Assembly (NCBI GenBank): GCA_903829075.1
Contig: CAIKOH010000067.1
Span: 1 to 38,745 of the forward strand
DNA from: Candidatus Uhrbacteria bacterium
Lineage (GTDB): Bacteria; Patescibacteriota; Patescibacteriia; 2-12-FULL-60-25
Direction of reading: 5' to 3'
DNA: 38,745 nt
The notes under the pieces are model-generated. The model was not told where the DNA came from and did no database searches. It worked only from the letters and a program-made list of their open reading frames with translations. Position numbers and translations under genes: made by a program. Below, piece by piece: positions 2,749-33,151 of the stretch (position 1 is the first letter of the stretch; every line of letters starts with the position of its first letter).

Positions 2749-4473
2749 TTAATTACCAAAATCCTCGACGCGATCCCCTGCCTGGAGACCAGAAACGATT
2801 TCCCACCAACCATCAGAACCGCGCGCGCCCACCTCAACGGACCGCTCTTTGGTCTGACCATCATCCGTGGCGAGCAACACCTCAAACGTTCCGTTCTTCT
2901 GCAGGATAGAACGCTCAGGGAGCGCAACGGCCGCGTCCTTCTCTTGCGTCACGATCGTAGCATTTCCCGTCAATCCTGCTCTGATGCGGCTGTCGCTATG
3001 CAAGAATTGAATCGTGACCTTATACCCGCTGACACCATTCACCGTAGAGATATTCGGATCAATCTTCACCACCGTGGCCGGAAATACAACGCTTGCGCCA
3101 TACGCGTCTGTTGTAACATTCGCTGGATTTCCGATCTTGATTTTTGCAAGATCCGTTTCTGAGACAAAGGCTTCCAGCTGAAAGCTCGTCTCATCGATTA
3201 CAGAAAGAACCGGAACGTTTGGACTGATAATGGTTCCGATTTTTCCATTTTGCACACTCACAATCCCATCAATCGGCGATCTCAATATCGTCTTGCTGTA
3301 TGCCGCGTCCGCAGAATCAAGAGCGGCTTGCAGAGGAGCAAGATCTGTTTCACGAACAGGCTGAGCTTTACTAGCAAGATTTGCTAACGCCTGCTGATAC
3401 ACAGCCTCCTTCAACTGCACGAGACTCGCCGCTGAAACCTGCGCATTCACGAGATCCTGCTGCGCCTTGTTGTAAGCAATGGTGTACGCATTGAGACTGT
3501 TTTTGGCGTTTTCAATGGCCTGTGTTGTAGCAACGAGCTGGCTAGATTGCGCGCTCAACGCCGTGCGAGTCAACTCTATCGTCGCCTGCATCGCCGCAAG
3601 ATTCGCTTGATCAGCGGCGTTACTCGTGGGAGTCGCCTTGATCACATCTGCGGTGGAGCTAAGCAACTGATTCAATGTGAACAGCGTCATCTTTTCATTC
3701 GTAATCGCGCCATCGATTGAATCATGCGCTGTTGCGGATGCTAGAGCCGTGACCGTGTCATGCGTTGCCTGAAGTTGCATTTTTGCGGCGGCGTATTGGT
3801 TCGTTGCTAACGCGAGCTTAGATCCATCAAATCCAGAAATGCGATCGTTTATCAACACAGAAGTTCGATCTATGCCGAGCACTGAATCCGCTTGATCAAG
3901 AGCGCCGTCCATTTGCGGCAGCTCTGCCTGCACGGTAGCGAGCGCCGATTCGTAGGCCTGCCCCACGATCTGGCTTTGATCACCCCCGGCAGCAAATTTC
4001 AAATTATTTTGCGCCGTGTCGACCGCCGCTTGCGCTGTGTCGACGGAAGCCTGTGTGTCTGTTTTTGTTTTATCCAAATCAGCCCTTGCTGCATCTGCCG
4101 CCGCTTTATAGACGTCAATATCAGCTGCGCTTAAACCCGCACGCTTCTGCGCCAACAATGCGCGTGCCTGAGAGACCACGGTCCCCTCTGCCGCATTCTC
4201 AAGCTCTGCGAGTATGTCGCCCGCCTTTACCGAGTCACCCACATTCTTGTACAGACGCGCAATACGGCCCCCTCGTTCAAATGAGAGGTCCACGCTTTGC
4301 GCGGGCTGAATCACACCATCAACTCGAACAGCTTCAAGAATATGATGCTGTCCCGCTAAAATAGAGCGCTTCTCTATCGGTTTCTGTTTCAAAAGCGCAT
4401 AGGACAGCGCGATAGAACCACCGATTAAAACCATGGCCACGATACCGAAAAGAAGAATCTTTTGTGTTTTCAT
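2749..4473 (-). CDS. RND/MacA-type periplasmic adaptor with very long alpha-hairpin
   Basis: 574 residues. An N-terminal membrane anchor (about 5-27) is followed by the first lipoyl half (FERGGRIARLYKNVGDSVKAG region, about 65-90), a long alanine- and glutamine-rich helical hairpin (about 95-380, probable coiled coil), the second lipoyl half (SPIDGIVSVQNGKIGT), a beta-barrel and a C-terminal membrane-proximal domain ending GLQAGDRVEDFG. This domain order is that of HlyD/MacA/RND membrane fusion proteins; the hairpin is longer than in a typical 350-400-residue member. It is the second gene of the marR operon, with no Shine-Dalgarno sequence before its ATG. Having two adaptors and one MFS pump in one operon is unusual. 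Confidence 0.85.
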   Translation of the reverse strand: MKTQKILLFGIVAMVLIGGSIALSYALLKQKPIEKRSILAGQHHILEAVRVDGVIQPAQSVDLSFERGGRIARLYKNVGDSVKAGDILAELENAAEGTVVSQARALLAQKRAGLSAADIDVYKAAADAARADLDKTKTDTQASVDTAQAAVDTAQNNLKFAAGGDQSQIVGQAYESALATVQAELPQMDGALDQADSVLGIDRTSVLINDRISGFDGSKLALATNQYAAAKMQLQATHDTVTALASATAHDSIDGAITNEKMTLFTLNQLLSSTADVIKATPTSNAADQANLAAMQATIELTRTALSAQSSQLVATTQAIENAKNSLNAYTIAYNKAQQDLVNAQVSAASLVQLKEAVYQQALANLASKAQPVRETDLAPLQAALDSADAAYSKTILRSPIDGIVSVQNGKIGTIISPNVPVLSVIDETSFQLEAFVSETDLAKIKIGNPANVTTDAYGASVVFPATVVKIDPNISTVNGVSGYKVTIQFLHSDSRIRAGLTGNATIVTQEKDAAVALPERSILQKNGTFEVLLATDDGQTKERSVEVGARGSDGWWEIVSGLQAGDRVEDFGN

Positions 4474-29141: not shown

Positions 29142-30497
29142 ATGAAATTCGGCGATATTCTGCATGGCATTATCCAAGACGTTGATGATCACGGTTGCGG
29201 CATCTGGCCGATTGTTCGCGAAGGGCAAAACGATGGATCATCGCTCAACGTGATCGTTCCTCATGCCACTCCGGGCGACGAGGTCGATGCAAGATTTATC
29301 AAGCGTGATCGCGGACGACGGGTCACGCAGCTCGAAACCGTCACGGTTCCAGGACCAGACCGCATCGCCGCCGCTTGTCCGCACGCCTCTGTCTGCGGCG
29401 GATGTTTATGGCAACACCTGGATTACCCCGCCCAACTTCGTCTCAAACTTCGCATGCTCAATCGAGCTTTTGAAAGCGCTCAACATGTGGAACGAATCGA
29501 TCAAATACAACCCGCAACAGATATCTGGCATTTTCGCAACCGTATGGACTATGTCATTGGCTGGCAAAGCGAAGTCGGGCTGAAAGCGTATGGAACGTGG
29601 AACAAATACCTCGATCTCCAAACCTGTCTCATTCTCGATGAAACGACGCCGACCATTTTGCAATGCGTACGCGACTTGATGCGCGAACTCGCACTCGAAC
29701 CCTGGGACAACCGTCGACACATCGGACTCATGCGCTACGTGGTGATCCGTGAAGGCAAACACATGCATGAACGCATGATCACACTCGTCGTTCATCAAGC
29801 GGATCAGATCAACGTGAAGGCACGCCAACGCATCATCGAACAACTCGCCCCACTCTGCACAACGTTATTCATTGGAGAAAATCCGGAACTCACAGATATC
29901 TCGATCTGCTCGCGTCTTGATCTGCTTCATGGCAAACCACTTCTCCAGGAAGAGGTGAACGGCCTGCATTACGACATCCATCCAAACTCTTTTTTTCAAA
30001 CGAATAGCGACATGGCGGCAGAATTGCAGAAGACCGTATTGGAATTTCTTGAATTAAACGTAAAAAAACAAAAAGTTCTCGATCTCTACTGCGGCTTAGG
30101 CTTCTTTGGTATCGCCTGCGCAAAAGAGGGCGCGACCGTCTATGGACATGAACTGGATGCACCGATGATTGAACTCGCAAAGCACAATGCCGAACTTAAT
30201 CAGGTCAAAACTTCGTGTACGTGGGGCAGCGGTCCTGTAGAAAAACTCGACTGGGCACACCTGCAACCTGACGCCGTGATCGTTGATCCACCGCGCAGCG
30301 GCCTCCATCCACGTGCACTCAAAACGCTTCTAGAAAATCCTGTTGCGACGCTCGTCTACGTTTCCTGCAACTATCATGCTTTCGTCAAAGAGCTTACCGC
30401 CCTCAAAACCGTCTATAACGTGACCGAAATGCGTGCGCTTGACCTCTTTCCGCATACACCACACCTCGAACTCGTCATAAAACTCACAAAAAAGTAA
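29142..30497 (+). CDS. 23S rRNA (uracil-C5) methyltransferase, RlmD/RumA-like
   Basis: 451 residues. An N-terminal TRAM-like domain (1-70) is followed by the 4Fe-4S cluster Cys residues C79, C85, C88 (CPHASVCGGC) and C162. The Rossmann domain has SAM motif VLDLYCGLGFFG, the VDPPRSG motif and the catalytic Cys409 in YVSCNYHAF; the base next to it is usually Pro (SCNP), here Tyr. The FFQTNSDMA segment is also typical. It methylates a uridine in 23S rRNA (m5U1939-type or m5U747-type). The presence of the cluster favours RlmD/RlmC over TrmA. Divergent from the glycosyltransferase gene. Confidence 0.9.
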   Translation: MKFGDILHGIIQDVDDHGCGIWPIVREGQNDGSSLNVIVPHATPGDEVDARFIKRDRGRRVTQLETVTVPGPDRIAAACPHASVCGGCLWQHLDYPAQLRLKLRMLNRAFESAQHVERIDQIQPATDIWHFRNRMDYVIGWQSEVGLKAYGTWNKYLDLQTCLILDETTPTILQCVRDLMRELALEPWDNRRHIGLMRYVVIREGKHMHERMITLVVHQADQINVKARQRIIEQLAPLCTTLFIGENPELTDISICSRLDLLHGKPLLQEEVNGLHYDIHPNSFFQTNSDMAAELQKTVLEFLELNVKKQKVLDLYCGLGFFGIACAKEGATVYGHELDAPMIELAKHNAELNQVKTSCTWGSGPVEKLDWAHLQPDAVIVDPPRSGLHPRALKTLLENPVATLVYVSCNYHAFVKELTALKTVYNVTEMRALDLFPHTPHLELVIKLTKK

Positions 30498-30545
30498 GTA
30501 AATCAATCATTTTAGCCATTTCTATTCATAAGTGTAAAGCAGCTC

Positions 30546-30574
30546 TTGACAATATTGGTTTTTTGTGATAGACT
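30546..30574 (+). promoter_or_regulatory. Consensus promoter of the zinc-ribbon gene
   Basis: A perfect TTGACA (30546-30551), 17-bp spacer and extended -10 TGA-TAGACT (TAGACT at 30569-30574). Transcription should start near 30581, giving a leader of about 97 bases. Confidence 0.8.
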
Positions 30575-30617
30575 ATTTCTTCAAGCTGCAATAACCGACG
30601 CAACTTGAAACCAGGAA

Positions 30618-30672
30618 GCCTCCTTCGATCGATACATCAAGAGAAAAGCCTTGAATATCGATCAAAGGAGGC
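30618..30672 (+). promoter_or_regulatory. Leader hairpin that buries the ribosome site
   Basis: The 16-base segment GCCTCCTTCGATCGAT (30618-30633) is complementary, with one C-A mismatch, to ATCGATCAAAGGAGGC (30657-30672), which contains the whole Shine-Dalgarno sequence AAAGGAGG. An inner stem TCAAG/CTTGA extends the hairpin. The 15 paired bases seen directly would block ribosome binding unless opened, as in RNA thermometers, riboswitch expression platforms or protein-controlled leaders. No known aptamer is recognised in the remaining leader. Confidence 0.7.
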
Positions 30673-30677
30673 CTCCC

Positions 30678-30884
30678 ATGACCAACACGATGGACAGTTC
30701 CGAGCCTCGCACCCTGTTCGGCCGCTGCAGGCGATGCCAGATGCCGCTGCTCAAGGGCCGGCCCTGCGGCGGCTGTGCAGGTGGACCGGGGCCTGGCCGC
30801 CCTGTGTCCGGGCGGCCCGTCCACCTGCACCCGGCCACCGAGGCCGTGGACCCGCAGGCGGCGGAGTTCTCCATCGCAGCCTAA
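30678..30884 (+). CDS. Small zinc-ribbon-like protein, 68 aa
   Basis: 68 residues from the ATG six bases after AAAGGAGG. Four Cys (C17, C20, C30, C33; C-x2-C-x9-C-x2-C) make a probable zinc ribbon, flanked by Arg/Lys and by a Gly/Pro-rich tail ending in an acidic stretch. GC content is far above that of neighbouring genes and codons are strongly GC-ending, which points to another origin or strong codon selection. No family is recognised; binding to RNA, DNA or ribosome is possible. No clear T-rich terminator follows. Confidence 0.65.
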   Translation: MTNTMDSSEPRTLFGRCRRCQMPLLKGRPCGGCAGGPGPGRPVSGRPVHLHPATEAVDPQAAEFSIAA

Positions 30885-31129
30885 CGAGCTGCCGGGCGTG
30901 GTCACCCGTAAAAAAACCACACCGTAATCATCATAAAGATGAAGTAGGGGTATCCTACAAATGCTCCGCCCTCACAAGCGGAACTCTTTCCAGAACCGTT
31001 CTCCCGCCGTGAAACGCGGACGGACGCTCTGGGTTCAGGACCCGTCTTCTCGACATCCTGAACGCCTTCACCGAACTTCCGACTCGCTCGGAACTTGAGA
31101 GAGGCAAACATCAATGAACATCGAAAGCC
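30885..31129. other. Gene-free stretch with several hairpins
   Basis: No credible gene. Perfect inverted repeats stand out: TTCAGGA/TCCTGAA (31034-31040/31056-31062) and TTCCGA/TCGGAA (31077-31082/31088-31093). They may belong to the 3' untranslated part of the zinc-ribbon mRNA or to a separate RNA. Confidence 0.4.
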
Positions 31130-31158
31130 TTGACAAAATCTCAAAAATCTGATAGAGT
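31130..31158 (+). promoter_or_regulatory. Consensus promoter of the structured RNA block
   Basis: TTGACA (31130-31135), 17-bp spacer, extended -10 TGA-TAGAGT (TAGAGT at 31153-31158). It is nearly the same as the promoter at 30546 (TTGACA-17-TAGACT). Transcription should start near 31165. Confidence 0.75.
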
Positions 31159-31180
31159 ATTTTTCTAACTGTGAGAAGGG

Positions 31181-31300
31181 ATGACGCATATCAACGATGC
31201 ATTCGTCGATCGAAGTCTGCAGGCAAGACCAGAAAATCTTGTCGGCAGACAGGCGCTCGACGAGCGAGAGGCGGGGGTCTCCATGTGGGATCTTCGGTGA
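31181..31300 (+). CDS. Possible 39-aa protein at the start of the RNA block
   Basis: ATG about 16 bases after the expected transcription start, with GAGAAGGG directly before it (too close for a normal ribosome site). The product (ending ALDEREAGVSMWDLR) has a natural composition. A second frame of 54 codons begins one base after its stop (31302-31466) and that one overlaps minigene 1 by ATGA. No family recognised. Confidence 0.3.
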   Translation: MTHINDAFVDRSLQARPENLVGRQALDEREAGVSMWDLR

Positions 31301-31301
31301 A

Positions 31302-31466
31302 ATGAGCGCGGTGCTTCCACTGCGACTCGCACCTACTCGCGCGCTAGAAGCCTGTGGGTTCCGATGTTTACAGGTCTGTTGTTTTCAACACCATCAACCC
31401 CTCCGCGTCATGGCAAACTCGATAACACGAGGACGCGGAATACATCGAGGAGAGGAGTCATCATGA
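31302..31466 (+). CDS. Possible 54-aa protein coupled to its neighbours
   Basis: ATG one base after the preceding TGA, with GGTGA just upstream; stop TGA (31464-31466) overlaps the ATG of minigene 1. The product is Cys/Arg-rich (GFRCLQVCCFQHHQP) without similarity known to me. The coding region runs through the strong hairpin at 31402-31439, so it may simply be chance. Confidence 0.2.
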   Translation: MSAVLPLRLAPTRALEACGFRCLQVCCFQHHQPLRVMANSITRGRGIHRGEESS

Positions 31467-31480
31467 GCTGGCCGAGTTAA
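31463..31480 (+). CDS. Minigene 1 (MSWPS)
   Basis: Five codons and a TAA stop, preceded at five bases by AGGAG inside the purine run GAGGAGAGGAG (31447-31457). It stands directly after the hairpin at 31402-31439. Confidence 0.3.
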   Translation: MSWPS

Positions 31481-32022
31481 GGCGCAGGCGCCGACGACGT
31501 GGCGAAAATCGGGATAAGAGCTGCTGATCGAACGTTCCCCGCGACGCGCCGTGCGCATCGCTAGACAGCAGAATCGCCGATCCGCCTCGTCGAGACCAAC
31601 CTTGGCGCCACAACGCCGCCGCGCCGGGACGAACTGAAGACGTCCCCGCCGCCGACGGTAAACGAAAGGCGCCAAGCCCCACCGCCTTCCAACCCGCCCC
31701 CGCACAAGGAACTACCTGCGCGCGCACCGAGCACCGAAACTCAGCGCGCCGGCCCACCTCCCTGTGCCCCGTCAACAATCCGCTAAAACCTACCTCGCGG
31801 AGCCAACGTTCACACGAACGCGCTCCGCATCCCCTCCGACCGCTTGATCGTGAAACATGATCGAGCTTTCAGAGAGGAGATCGCTTTCGTCACACATGGT
31901 CTGTACACCTTTTATCAGCAGGTGTCCGGACGGACGTGCGACGAACCGGCTCGACGAACGCGTCGACGCCACCCGTCACTCCGCTCCTACGGGAAAAAGC
32001 TGACCAGGGAAGGGAGGAACAG

Positions 32023-32061
32023 ATGAGAACGCGCATCACGCAGCACGCCAACTCGATGTAG
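32023..32061 (+). CDS. Minigene 2 (12 codons)
   Basis: ATG five bases after GGGAGG (32012-32017); product MRTRITQHANSM, stop TAG. Hairpins lie just upstream (31948-31970; CCCGT/ACGGG near 31972-31993). Confidence 0.3.
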   Translation: MRTRITQHANSM

Positions 32062-32101
32062 GGCCACGCCGGCGCCGCCCCGACCAAGGAAGGCAGGTCA
32101 C

Positions 32102-32119
32102 ATGAAAGCGTATCACTAG
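32102..32119 (+). CDS. Minigene 3 (MKAYH)
   Basis: ATG eight bases after AAGGAAGG (32086-32093); five codons, stop TAG. The stop runs into the left arm (GGGCCC) of a hairpin whose right arm lies near 32150. Confidence 0.3.
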   Translation: MKAYH

Positions 32120-32385
32120 GGCCCTCTACCGTGGCGATAAAATTACGGAGGGGCCCGAGGGGTGCCCAAAGAACGTTGTGCTCGGTGACGACGATTCAAC
32201 CCTACCTGAAACCTGGAGGCACGAAAATCCGCAAAGACGTAAGACTCTTGTGCGGTAGCGCCTTTATGCTAAGGCCATCCAAGATTCAGGGGGATGGAAT
32301 GCTGGGACTCCCAGCAACCCTGATGTCGACAGCGACTCGAATCAAGAGCCGCGGTCGGAAACTGAGTATGAAGGGAGAAGTAGAC

Positions 32386-32406
32386 ATGATCTGGCCCAGA
32401 CAGTAG
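32386..32406 (+). CDS. Minigene 4 (MIWPRQ)
   Basis: ATG eight bases after AGGGAG (32372-32377); six codons, stop TAG. Both peptide (M-x-W-P) and DNA (ATGANCTGGCC) resemble minigene 1. Confidence 0.3.
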   Translation: MIWPRQ

Positions 32407-32411
32407 CAAGG

Positions 32412-32528
32412 ATGAATCTGAACGGACTCGGAACCAAGGAGGTGAAAAGATCCAGGTATAAAAAAACGAAGCGCCAAAAGGCCAAGGCCGCGGCACCCTA
32501 CTCGGGCATAGAGTCGGTTTTTCCTTGA
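32412..32528 (+). CDS. Possible small basic protein, 38 aa
   Basis: ATG five bases after the stop of minigene 4. The middle of the product is very basic (VKRSRYKKTKRQKAKA), like small ribosomal or nucleic-acid-binding proteins. A perfect anti-SD complement AAGGAGGTGA (32438-32447) lies inside the frame, which argues that a different start, for example a GTG or ATC just after it, could be used instead. Confidence 0.35.
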   Translation: MNLNGLGTKEVKRSRYKKTKRQKAKAAAPYSGIESVFP

Positions 32529-32716
32529 ACCGTTGGTGTGGCGCACACCACAAGGAACTCTGGGGAGCGGCTGTTGAAAAAACACCCCGCTCCCCGCCCC
32601 TAACGCGTCGTTCAGAAAAGTCTGGACGCCGCTGAAAGGCAATCCCACCCGTCGACGTCCGATGGTTCCTGCGAAAAAGTTTTCACACGAACCATCGCTC
32701 GTCGAAACCCAGAGGA

Positions 32717-32740
32717 CTGACACGGTGTCAGCCCTTTTCT
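32717..32740 (+). terminator. Terminator-like end of the RNA block
   Basis: CTGACAC (32717-32723) and GTGTCAG (32725-32731) form a perfect inverted repeat, giving at least a five-pair stem, followed by CCC and TTTTCT. Moderate strength. Confidence 0.5.
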
Positions 32741-32770
32741 GTCTCACGGCGCGAACAATACAGGTGGATC

Positions 32771-33040
32771 TTGAAGAAGGAAGTTATTTCTCAGGCCTCG
32801 TGGACCATGTTCGTGGCTAGCATGCTCGCCCTGGCTATTGCGGGAGCCATCGCCTTCCACAACTACCTGTCCACAGAAAACATCGCGACCCTCCTCTTCG
32901 TGGTCATCACCATCCGCGTGATCGAGCTCGTGCGGATCGCGATGAAGCCCAGCGACGACGGCGCCCTGGCCGTCGCGACGATCGGTCAGACCACCTTCGA
33001 CGGATCGATGCTCCCCTATCGCGATCCGAACGCGCGATAA
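32771..33040 (+). CDS. Small membrane protein, 89 aa, GC-rich codons
   Basis: 89 residues from a TTG start six bases after AGGTGG; the first ATG (32807) lies inside the first membrane helix and would remove its beginning. Two membrane helices (about 10-30 and 38-56) are followed by a soluble tail with SDDGALAVATIGQTTFDG. Codons are strongly GC-ending (CTC, ATC, GTG, CGC), unlike the next gene. No family recognised. It has a strong terminator of its own; its promoter is not clear, so it may be read from the RNA block upstream. Confidence 0.6.
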   Translation: MKKEVISQASWTMFVASMLALAIAGAIAFHNYLSTENIATLLFVVITIRVIELVRIAMKPSDDGALAVATIGQTTFDGSMLPYRDPNAR

Positions 33041-33062
33041 AACCGAGCCGTCCCCGCCCTCA

Positions 33063-33118
33063 ACGCCCCCGATCGCATCCGAGTGAACTCACTCAAGTGC
33101 AATCGCGGGGCGTGTTTT
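33063..33118 (+). terminator. Strong terminator after the small membrane protein
   Basis: ACGCCCCCGATCGCA (from 33063) pairs with TGCAATCGCGGGGCGT (ending at 33113) with one bulge and small mismatches, enclosing a smaller GAGT/ACTC hairpin, and is followed by GTTTTCG. It lies 20-75 bases after the gene. Confidence 0.75.
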
Positions 33119-33130
33119 CGTGTATTTTTT

Positions 33131-33151
33131 ATGCTATACTTTTTTTCATCT
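33131..33151 (+). promoter_or_regulatory. Extended -10 promoter of the nucleotidyltransferase-like gene
   Basis: TGC-TATACT (TATACT at 33135-33140) is an extended -10 with five of six consensus bases. Transcription should begin near 33147, five bases before the ATG at 33152, leaving no room for a ribosome site. Confidence 0.6.

Follow-up and report, generated by a model that had tools for sequence, protein, structure and literature searches.

The segment 31160–32745 (plus strand) of contig C67 is a structured, noncoding region that is probably transcribed; it forms part of a probable operon and is unlike any described family. Throughout, the window denotes the whole stretch of 38,745 nt that was analysed, from a host genome of 1.04 Mb that is 98% complete. 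The locus is an extreme case of a genome-wide class of GC-rich orphan genes that are equipped with long folded untranslated regions. Its noncoding character is evident from codon periodicity: the period-3 signal-to-noise ratio for 31160–32760 is 0.23, below the shuffle mean of 0.94, and the corresponding values are 8.8–16.3 for P0003, P0001, P0002 and ruvB, and elsewhere in the window the median for 540-nt segments is 4.1. The first-pass annotation had recognised no protein-like frame here, which these values confirm; they also leave a decayed coding sequence unsupported. The GC-richness that it described is real as well (0.54–0.63, versus about 0.50).

The folding of this region is far more stable than that of shuffled sequence. 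The global minimum free energy of the plus strand is −625.5, as compared with −557.0 ± 7.4 for dinucleotide shuffles performed block-wise in 200-nt blocks (z = −9.3; the minus strand has a z of −7.6). The comparison with shuffles of the same dinucleotide content, which had been put forward as a check on the structured-RNA interpretation, is thus passed with one of the strongest signals in the window: most of the lowest 200-nt sliding-window z values across its 38.7 kb are contained in 30500–33100. An initial count of at least ten stems of 6–13 pairs holds up as to the enrichment and not as to its extent, which is less dramatic: there are nine perfect stems of at least 7 bp versus 5.3 ± 2.0 in shuffles, and three of at least 9 bp versus 0.33. 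Many shorter stems arise by chance, as had been suspected from the ease with which GC-rich DNA forms hairpins. In the fold of the region, 42% of the unpaired bases on the plus strand are A, a bias that fits a plus-strand RNA. A multi-hairpin segment at 32215–32336 (+) includes a possible pseudoknot (TAGC-GCCTT with GCTA-AGGC).

The promoter of this unit (31130–31158, +) has the consensus-like form TTGACA-17-TAGAGT that was originally proposed, plus a TG before the −10 element, and it fits a lineage-wide pattern, TTGACAAAAN6AAANNTGNTANANT. In 22 of the 41 family genomes, 37 instances of this pattern were found, as opposed to none in the reversed control, and strongly folding sequence follows most of them. 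In sequence terms, the region has the own promoter, and the lack of coding signal, that are expected of a stand-alone noncoding RNA gene. We also observed that the locus combines the TTGACAAAA promoter, the folded untranslated region and the GC3-rich orphan gene that define a class of transcription units in Uhrbacteria. In the G000 genome, where GC3 is typically near 0.52, about 77 genes have GC3 ≥ 0.68 (the genes were called from codon usage with a crude caller, which missed rlmD, for example). The gaps upstream of these 77 genes have a median of 198 nt, versus 64 nt for typical genes (p = 7e-13), and they fold better (mean z of −1.51 versus −0.87); the longest is that of the studied locus. 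Contigs C63, C27 and C19 display a similar layout, in which a folded noncoding stretch hundreds of bases long separates the promoter from a Shine-Dalgarno sequence and a GC-rich ORF. The C63 example is a strongly folding noncoding leader of about 1.1 kb (L088:4260–5360, −) that follows a TTGACAAA promoter and contains repeated CGAGGATACTACAAC; BLAST found no relatives of it. Many of the 77 genes are orphans whose products look like secreted proteins or lipoproteins and carry DTG-type linkers.

The 3′ boundary of the unit is less sharply drawn. A terminator-like hairpin had been placed at 32717–32740 (+), and it is present (hairpin 32717–32731, followed by CCCTTTTC), but its strength as a terminator is not borne out: four such sites are found in the region versus 4.7 expected from shuffles, and the U tract is partly paired in the local fold. 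This hairpin could end a share of the transcripts. Only 30 nt past the proposed end of the region begins P0003 (32771–33040, +), a GC-rich orphan gene for an 89-residue membrane protein, with a TTG start and a Shine-Dalgarno sequence; it has a clear period-3 coding signal, a GC3 of 0.83 and two matches at E = 0.002. No promoter-like site was found between the hairpin and P0003, and past the gene, at 33066–33131 (+; 7-bp site at 33104), a longer hairpin accompanied by a T tract is the probable terminator of the unit. Bearing in mind the weak 32717 hairpin, the promoterless P0003 and the later probable terminator, the simplest unit would extend from 31160 to about 33130. P0003 would then be its last cistron, probably on the same transcript as the structured region and reached by read-through. 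Neither P0003 nor P0002 has relatives that would provide synteny.

The neighbourhood of the region suggests how it came to be there. To its left lies a gene for an RlmD/TrmA-type methyltransferase (rlmD, 29142–30497), and to its right an orphan gene of 531–554 codons that starts at 33083 or 33152. The relatives of the studied genome by rpoB mostly bear the name Candidatus Uhrbacteria (Patescibacteria) in public records. In nearly all of the 29 relatives examined, era directly follows rlmD, whereas the two genes are 6.6 kb apart in the studied genome (30498–37114). This near-universal adjacency identifies the structured block 31160–32745 as an insertion at the rlmD–era junction that is specific to the lineage. 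Different orphan inserts occupy the same junction in several relatives and genera (L186, L195, L200, L206, L208 and L211); the L211 insert is REP-associated transposase-like by eye. Also of note is a shorter unit immediately upstream of ours (30546–30884), with the same promoter type as that at 31130. Its promoter-like site (30546–30574, +; TTGACA-17-TAGACT with TG) precedes a long hairpin (30614–30676, +; window z −5.5) that is predicted, from sequence and minimum free energy, to sequester the Shine-Dalgarno sequence of P0004 (30678–30884, +). The latter is a 68-residue ORF with a strong Shine-Dalgarno sequence and a zinc-ribbon-like CxxC-12-CxxC motif, no Pfam match, and an uncertain coding status (period-3 ratio 1.28).

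One part of the region recurs in other genera: two adjacent hairpins, HA and HB, at 31797–31883 (+). A covariance model built from 31797–31970 alone detected two copies in genome G018 and, in G016, a single credible one; further copies comprise a second in G016 and two in the studied genome, on C19 and C27. In the seven copies of HB, the upper stem is mostly invariant; the stem is CUUGAUC..GAUCGAG with a conserved G-U pair, and CUUYCAGAG or a similar sequence lies 3′ to it. The sequence of HA varies among the copies and its pairing is kept. The covariation in this element, given the few copies, is suggestive only, and the E-values of its matches are weak (0.0046 per genome at best). The copies are always associated with GC-rich genes, in whose spacers or 3′ UTRs they lie, in the latter case directly behind the stop codon; this ties the region to the untranslated parts of GC-rich orphan genes. 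One G016 copy is situated between the stop codon and a terminator of a lipoprotein gene that has the same promoter type.

BLAST searches of 96 relatives and 381 genomes of the taxonomic class yielded no credible DNA match to the region, except for one short true one: a BLASTN match in G016 (L006/L019) is a genuine HB copy. Most other BLASTN matches in relatives fall inside unrelated coding genes or cover the promoter alone. Outside the HA–HB element, which spans about 85 nt, BLAST detected no relative of the remaining 1.5 kb, and a single-sequence covariance model found none for 32215–32336; purifying selection on this 1.5 kb is therefore unsupported. Weak matches to the model R2 at G030, G011, G024, G005, L078 and L100 are probably due to chance. 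When 30500–33100 was submitted to cmscan against Rfam at E ≤ 10, just four chance-level matches were returned. This result agrees with the earlier view that no known consensus is recognisable, rules out membership of the OLE, GOLLD or ROOL families, and leaves the group I or group II intron that we had suspected from the sequence with no match.

Another structured RNA emerged from these searches, outside the window. It is a domain of 130–190 nt that recurs in leaders of other genera, in which a long P1 helix, with a near-invariant GGAGG/CCTCC, encloses three arms. The covariance model R1, which we built from ten copies, matches 42 of the 96 relatives in 26 genera, usually as a few tandem copies at one locus (L155–L184 and L215–L293). 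Over 53 copies (alignment A3), 88.8% of cells are paired versus 65.2% after shuffling, and the covariation score is 0.594, whereas shuffling lowers it to 0.199 and sliding to 0.111 or less; these counts are biased towards structure, A3 having been fitted to R1. Covariation of the outer P1 helix is, however, already apparent in a ten-copy MAFFT alignment, and Rfam contains no match. This three-arm RNA is a new, clearly conserved RNA family. Of 80 named loci, 29 carry it upstream of rpoB, encoded on the other strand; the gene that follows it differs from genome to genome, and its promoter is of the type found at 31130. The window region resembles it in promoter type, in the GC-rich orphan gene downstream and in its serial arrangement of several structured domains. 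On the other hand, R1 gives no match in the window (the best score, 7.1 bits, is to a plain hairpin that lacks the GGAGG/CCTCC P1 helix), so we rejected membership, and the copies of the studied genome are on C27 (21475–21810, that is L108:2476–2639 and 2642–2811, +). In L218, a record titled Alphaproteobacteria, an Uhrbacteria-type rpoB accompanies two copies of the three-arm RNA; this contig is probably mis-binned.

We hypothesize, with a probability of about 0.5, that the region is a structured and untranslated stretch of an operon with a GC-rich orphan gene, and that it acts in cis. There would be one plus-strand unit, starting near 31165 and probably ending near 33130, in which P0003 is the sole ordinary cistron. 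By its architecture, this unit belongs to a lineage-wide GC-rich orphan class whose members share the TTGACAAAA/TGnTAnAnT promoter and have leaders, spacers and 3′ UTRs dense with hairpins. The successive stable hairpins may fold co-transcriptionally and may protect or insulate the message; the hairpins might also meter ribosome access, possibly together with mini-ORFs that are led by Shine-Dalgarno sequences. What the analysis establishes is the absence of coding, the strong folding, the promoter, the place in the class by architecture, the element in common with other genera and the insertion; that the region is transcribed, that transcription continues into P0003 and what the region does are all inferred. 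A counterpoint is that 1.6 kb is long for the leader of an 89-residue protein. A less likely alternative is a large structured noncoding RNA that stands alone, is some 1.6 kb long and stops at 32740; it would act in trans or serve as a scaffold, and P0003 would simply be its 3′ neighbour. This is doubtful: the terminator is weak, P0003 is devoid of a promoter of its own, Rfam offers no match, most of the region is without a relative, and the shared element sits elsewhere in mRNA spacers and 3′ UTRs. These points are set against the strength of the fold, the A-richness of the unpaired bases, the dedicated promoter and the existence in the lineage of another conserved structured RNA with the same promoter type and a variable downstream gene. 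The first-pass interpretation of a large structured RNA thus survives in so far as the region is structured, noncoding and probably transcribed, while its stand-alone outline is questionable in view of the 3′ end.

We consider it unlikely that we are looking at the decayed or neutral remains of a horizontally acquired GC-rich operon, from which the genes were lost and spacers and truncated initiation sites were left with no present function. The promoter is intact, codon periodicity is absent, and folding so far beyond that of shuffles is unexpected of decayed coding DNA; such an origin would nevertheless be compatible with an insertion at a junction that takes different orphan inserts in relatives, with a shared element that is a spacer or 3′-UTR element elsewhere, and with mini-ORFs that could be truncated start sites. 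Those mini-ORFs, all on the plus strand, are MWDLR (31283–31300, Shine-Dalgarno-like sequence), MSWPS (31463–31480, strong Shine-Dalgarno), MRTRITQHANSM (32023–32061, strong), MKAYH (32102–32119, weak) and MIWPRQ (32386–32406, Shine-Dalgarno present). Five ATGs with a Shine-Dalgarno sequence compare with 1.6 ± 1.2 in shuffles and one on the minus strand, and two of the peptides start with M-x-W-P. Even so, a run of micro-cistrons whose products are these peptides of 5–12 residues, serving for example in stalling or attenuation, is highly improbable: the enrichment is modest, and other leaders of the class have only 0.67 such mini-ORFs per kb versus 0.33 expected.

The cis-acting reading invites comparison with riboswitch, attenuator and T-box leaders, which share the succession of promoter, long folded leader, Shine-Dalgarno sequence and gene; the region differs from them in being much longer, in having no known aptamer and no demonstrated terminator/antiterminator pair, and in the orphan status of the downstream gene. 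OLE, GOLLD and ROOL, which form homo-oligomeric complexes as visualised by cryo-EM (PMC12286853), resemble it in being long, structured and noncoding, with their own promoters and adjoining small orphan genes. In contrast to them, the region has no Rfam covariance match and is probably continuous with a downstream cistron. More tentatively, it is possible that the region is a lineage-specific member of an undescribed Uhrbacteria programme of large structured RNAs, which would be characterised by one promoter type, modular hairpin domains and an unrelated GC-rich orphan gene after each, with the rpoB-linked three-arm RNA as the core member.

Little work appears to exist on structured RNAs from the Candidate Phyla Radiation; in the open-access literature we found no paper devoted to them. 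If the region is transcribed, these reduced genomes devote kilobases to folded RNA that is untranslated and linked to a class of GC-rich orphan genes. The three-arm family, with its solid covariation and conserved position by rpoB, makes large RNAs of uncultured bacteria testable. Two other observations concern RNA features elsewhere. On C27 (L108, about 4118–4225), a spacer between GC-rich genes holds a tRNA-like sequence, GGCAGC...GGTTCAAATCC...GCTGCCA, for which ARAGORN makes no call, and at L103:17387–17646 a group I intron lies within a 23S rRNA gene.
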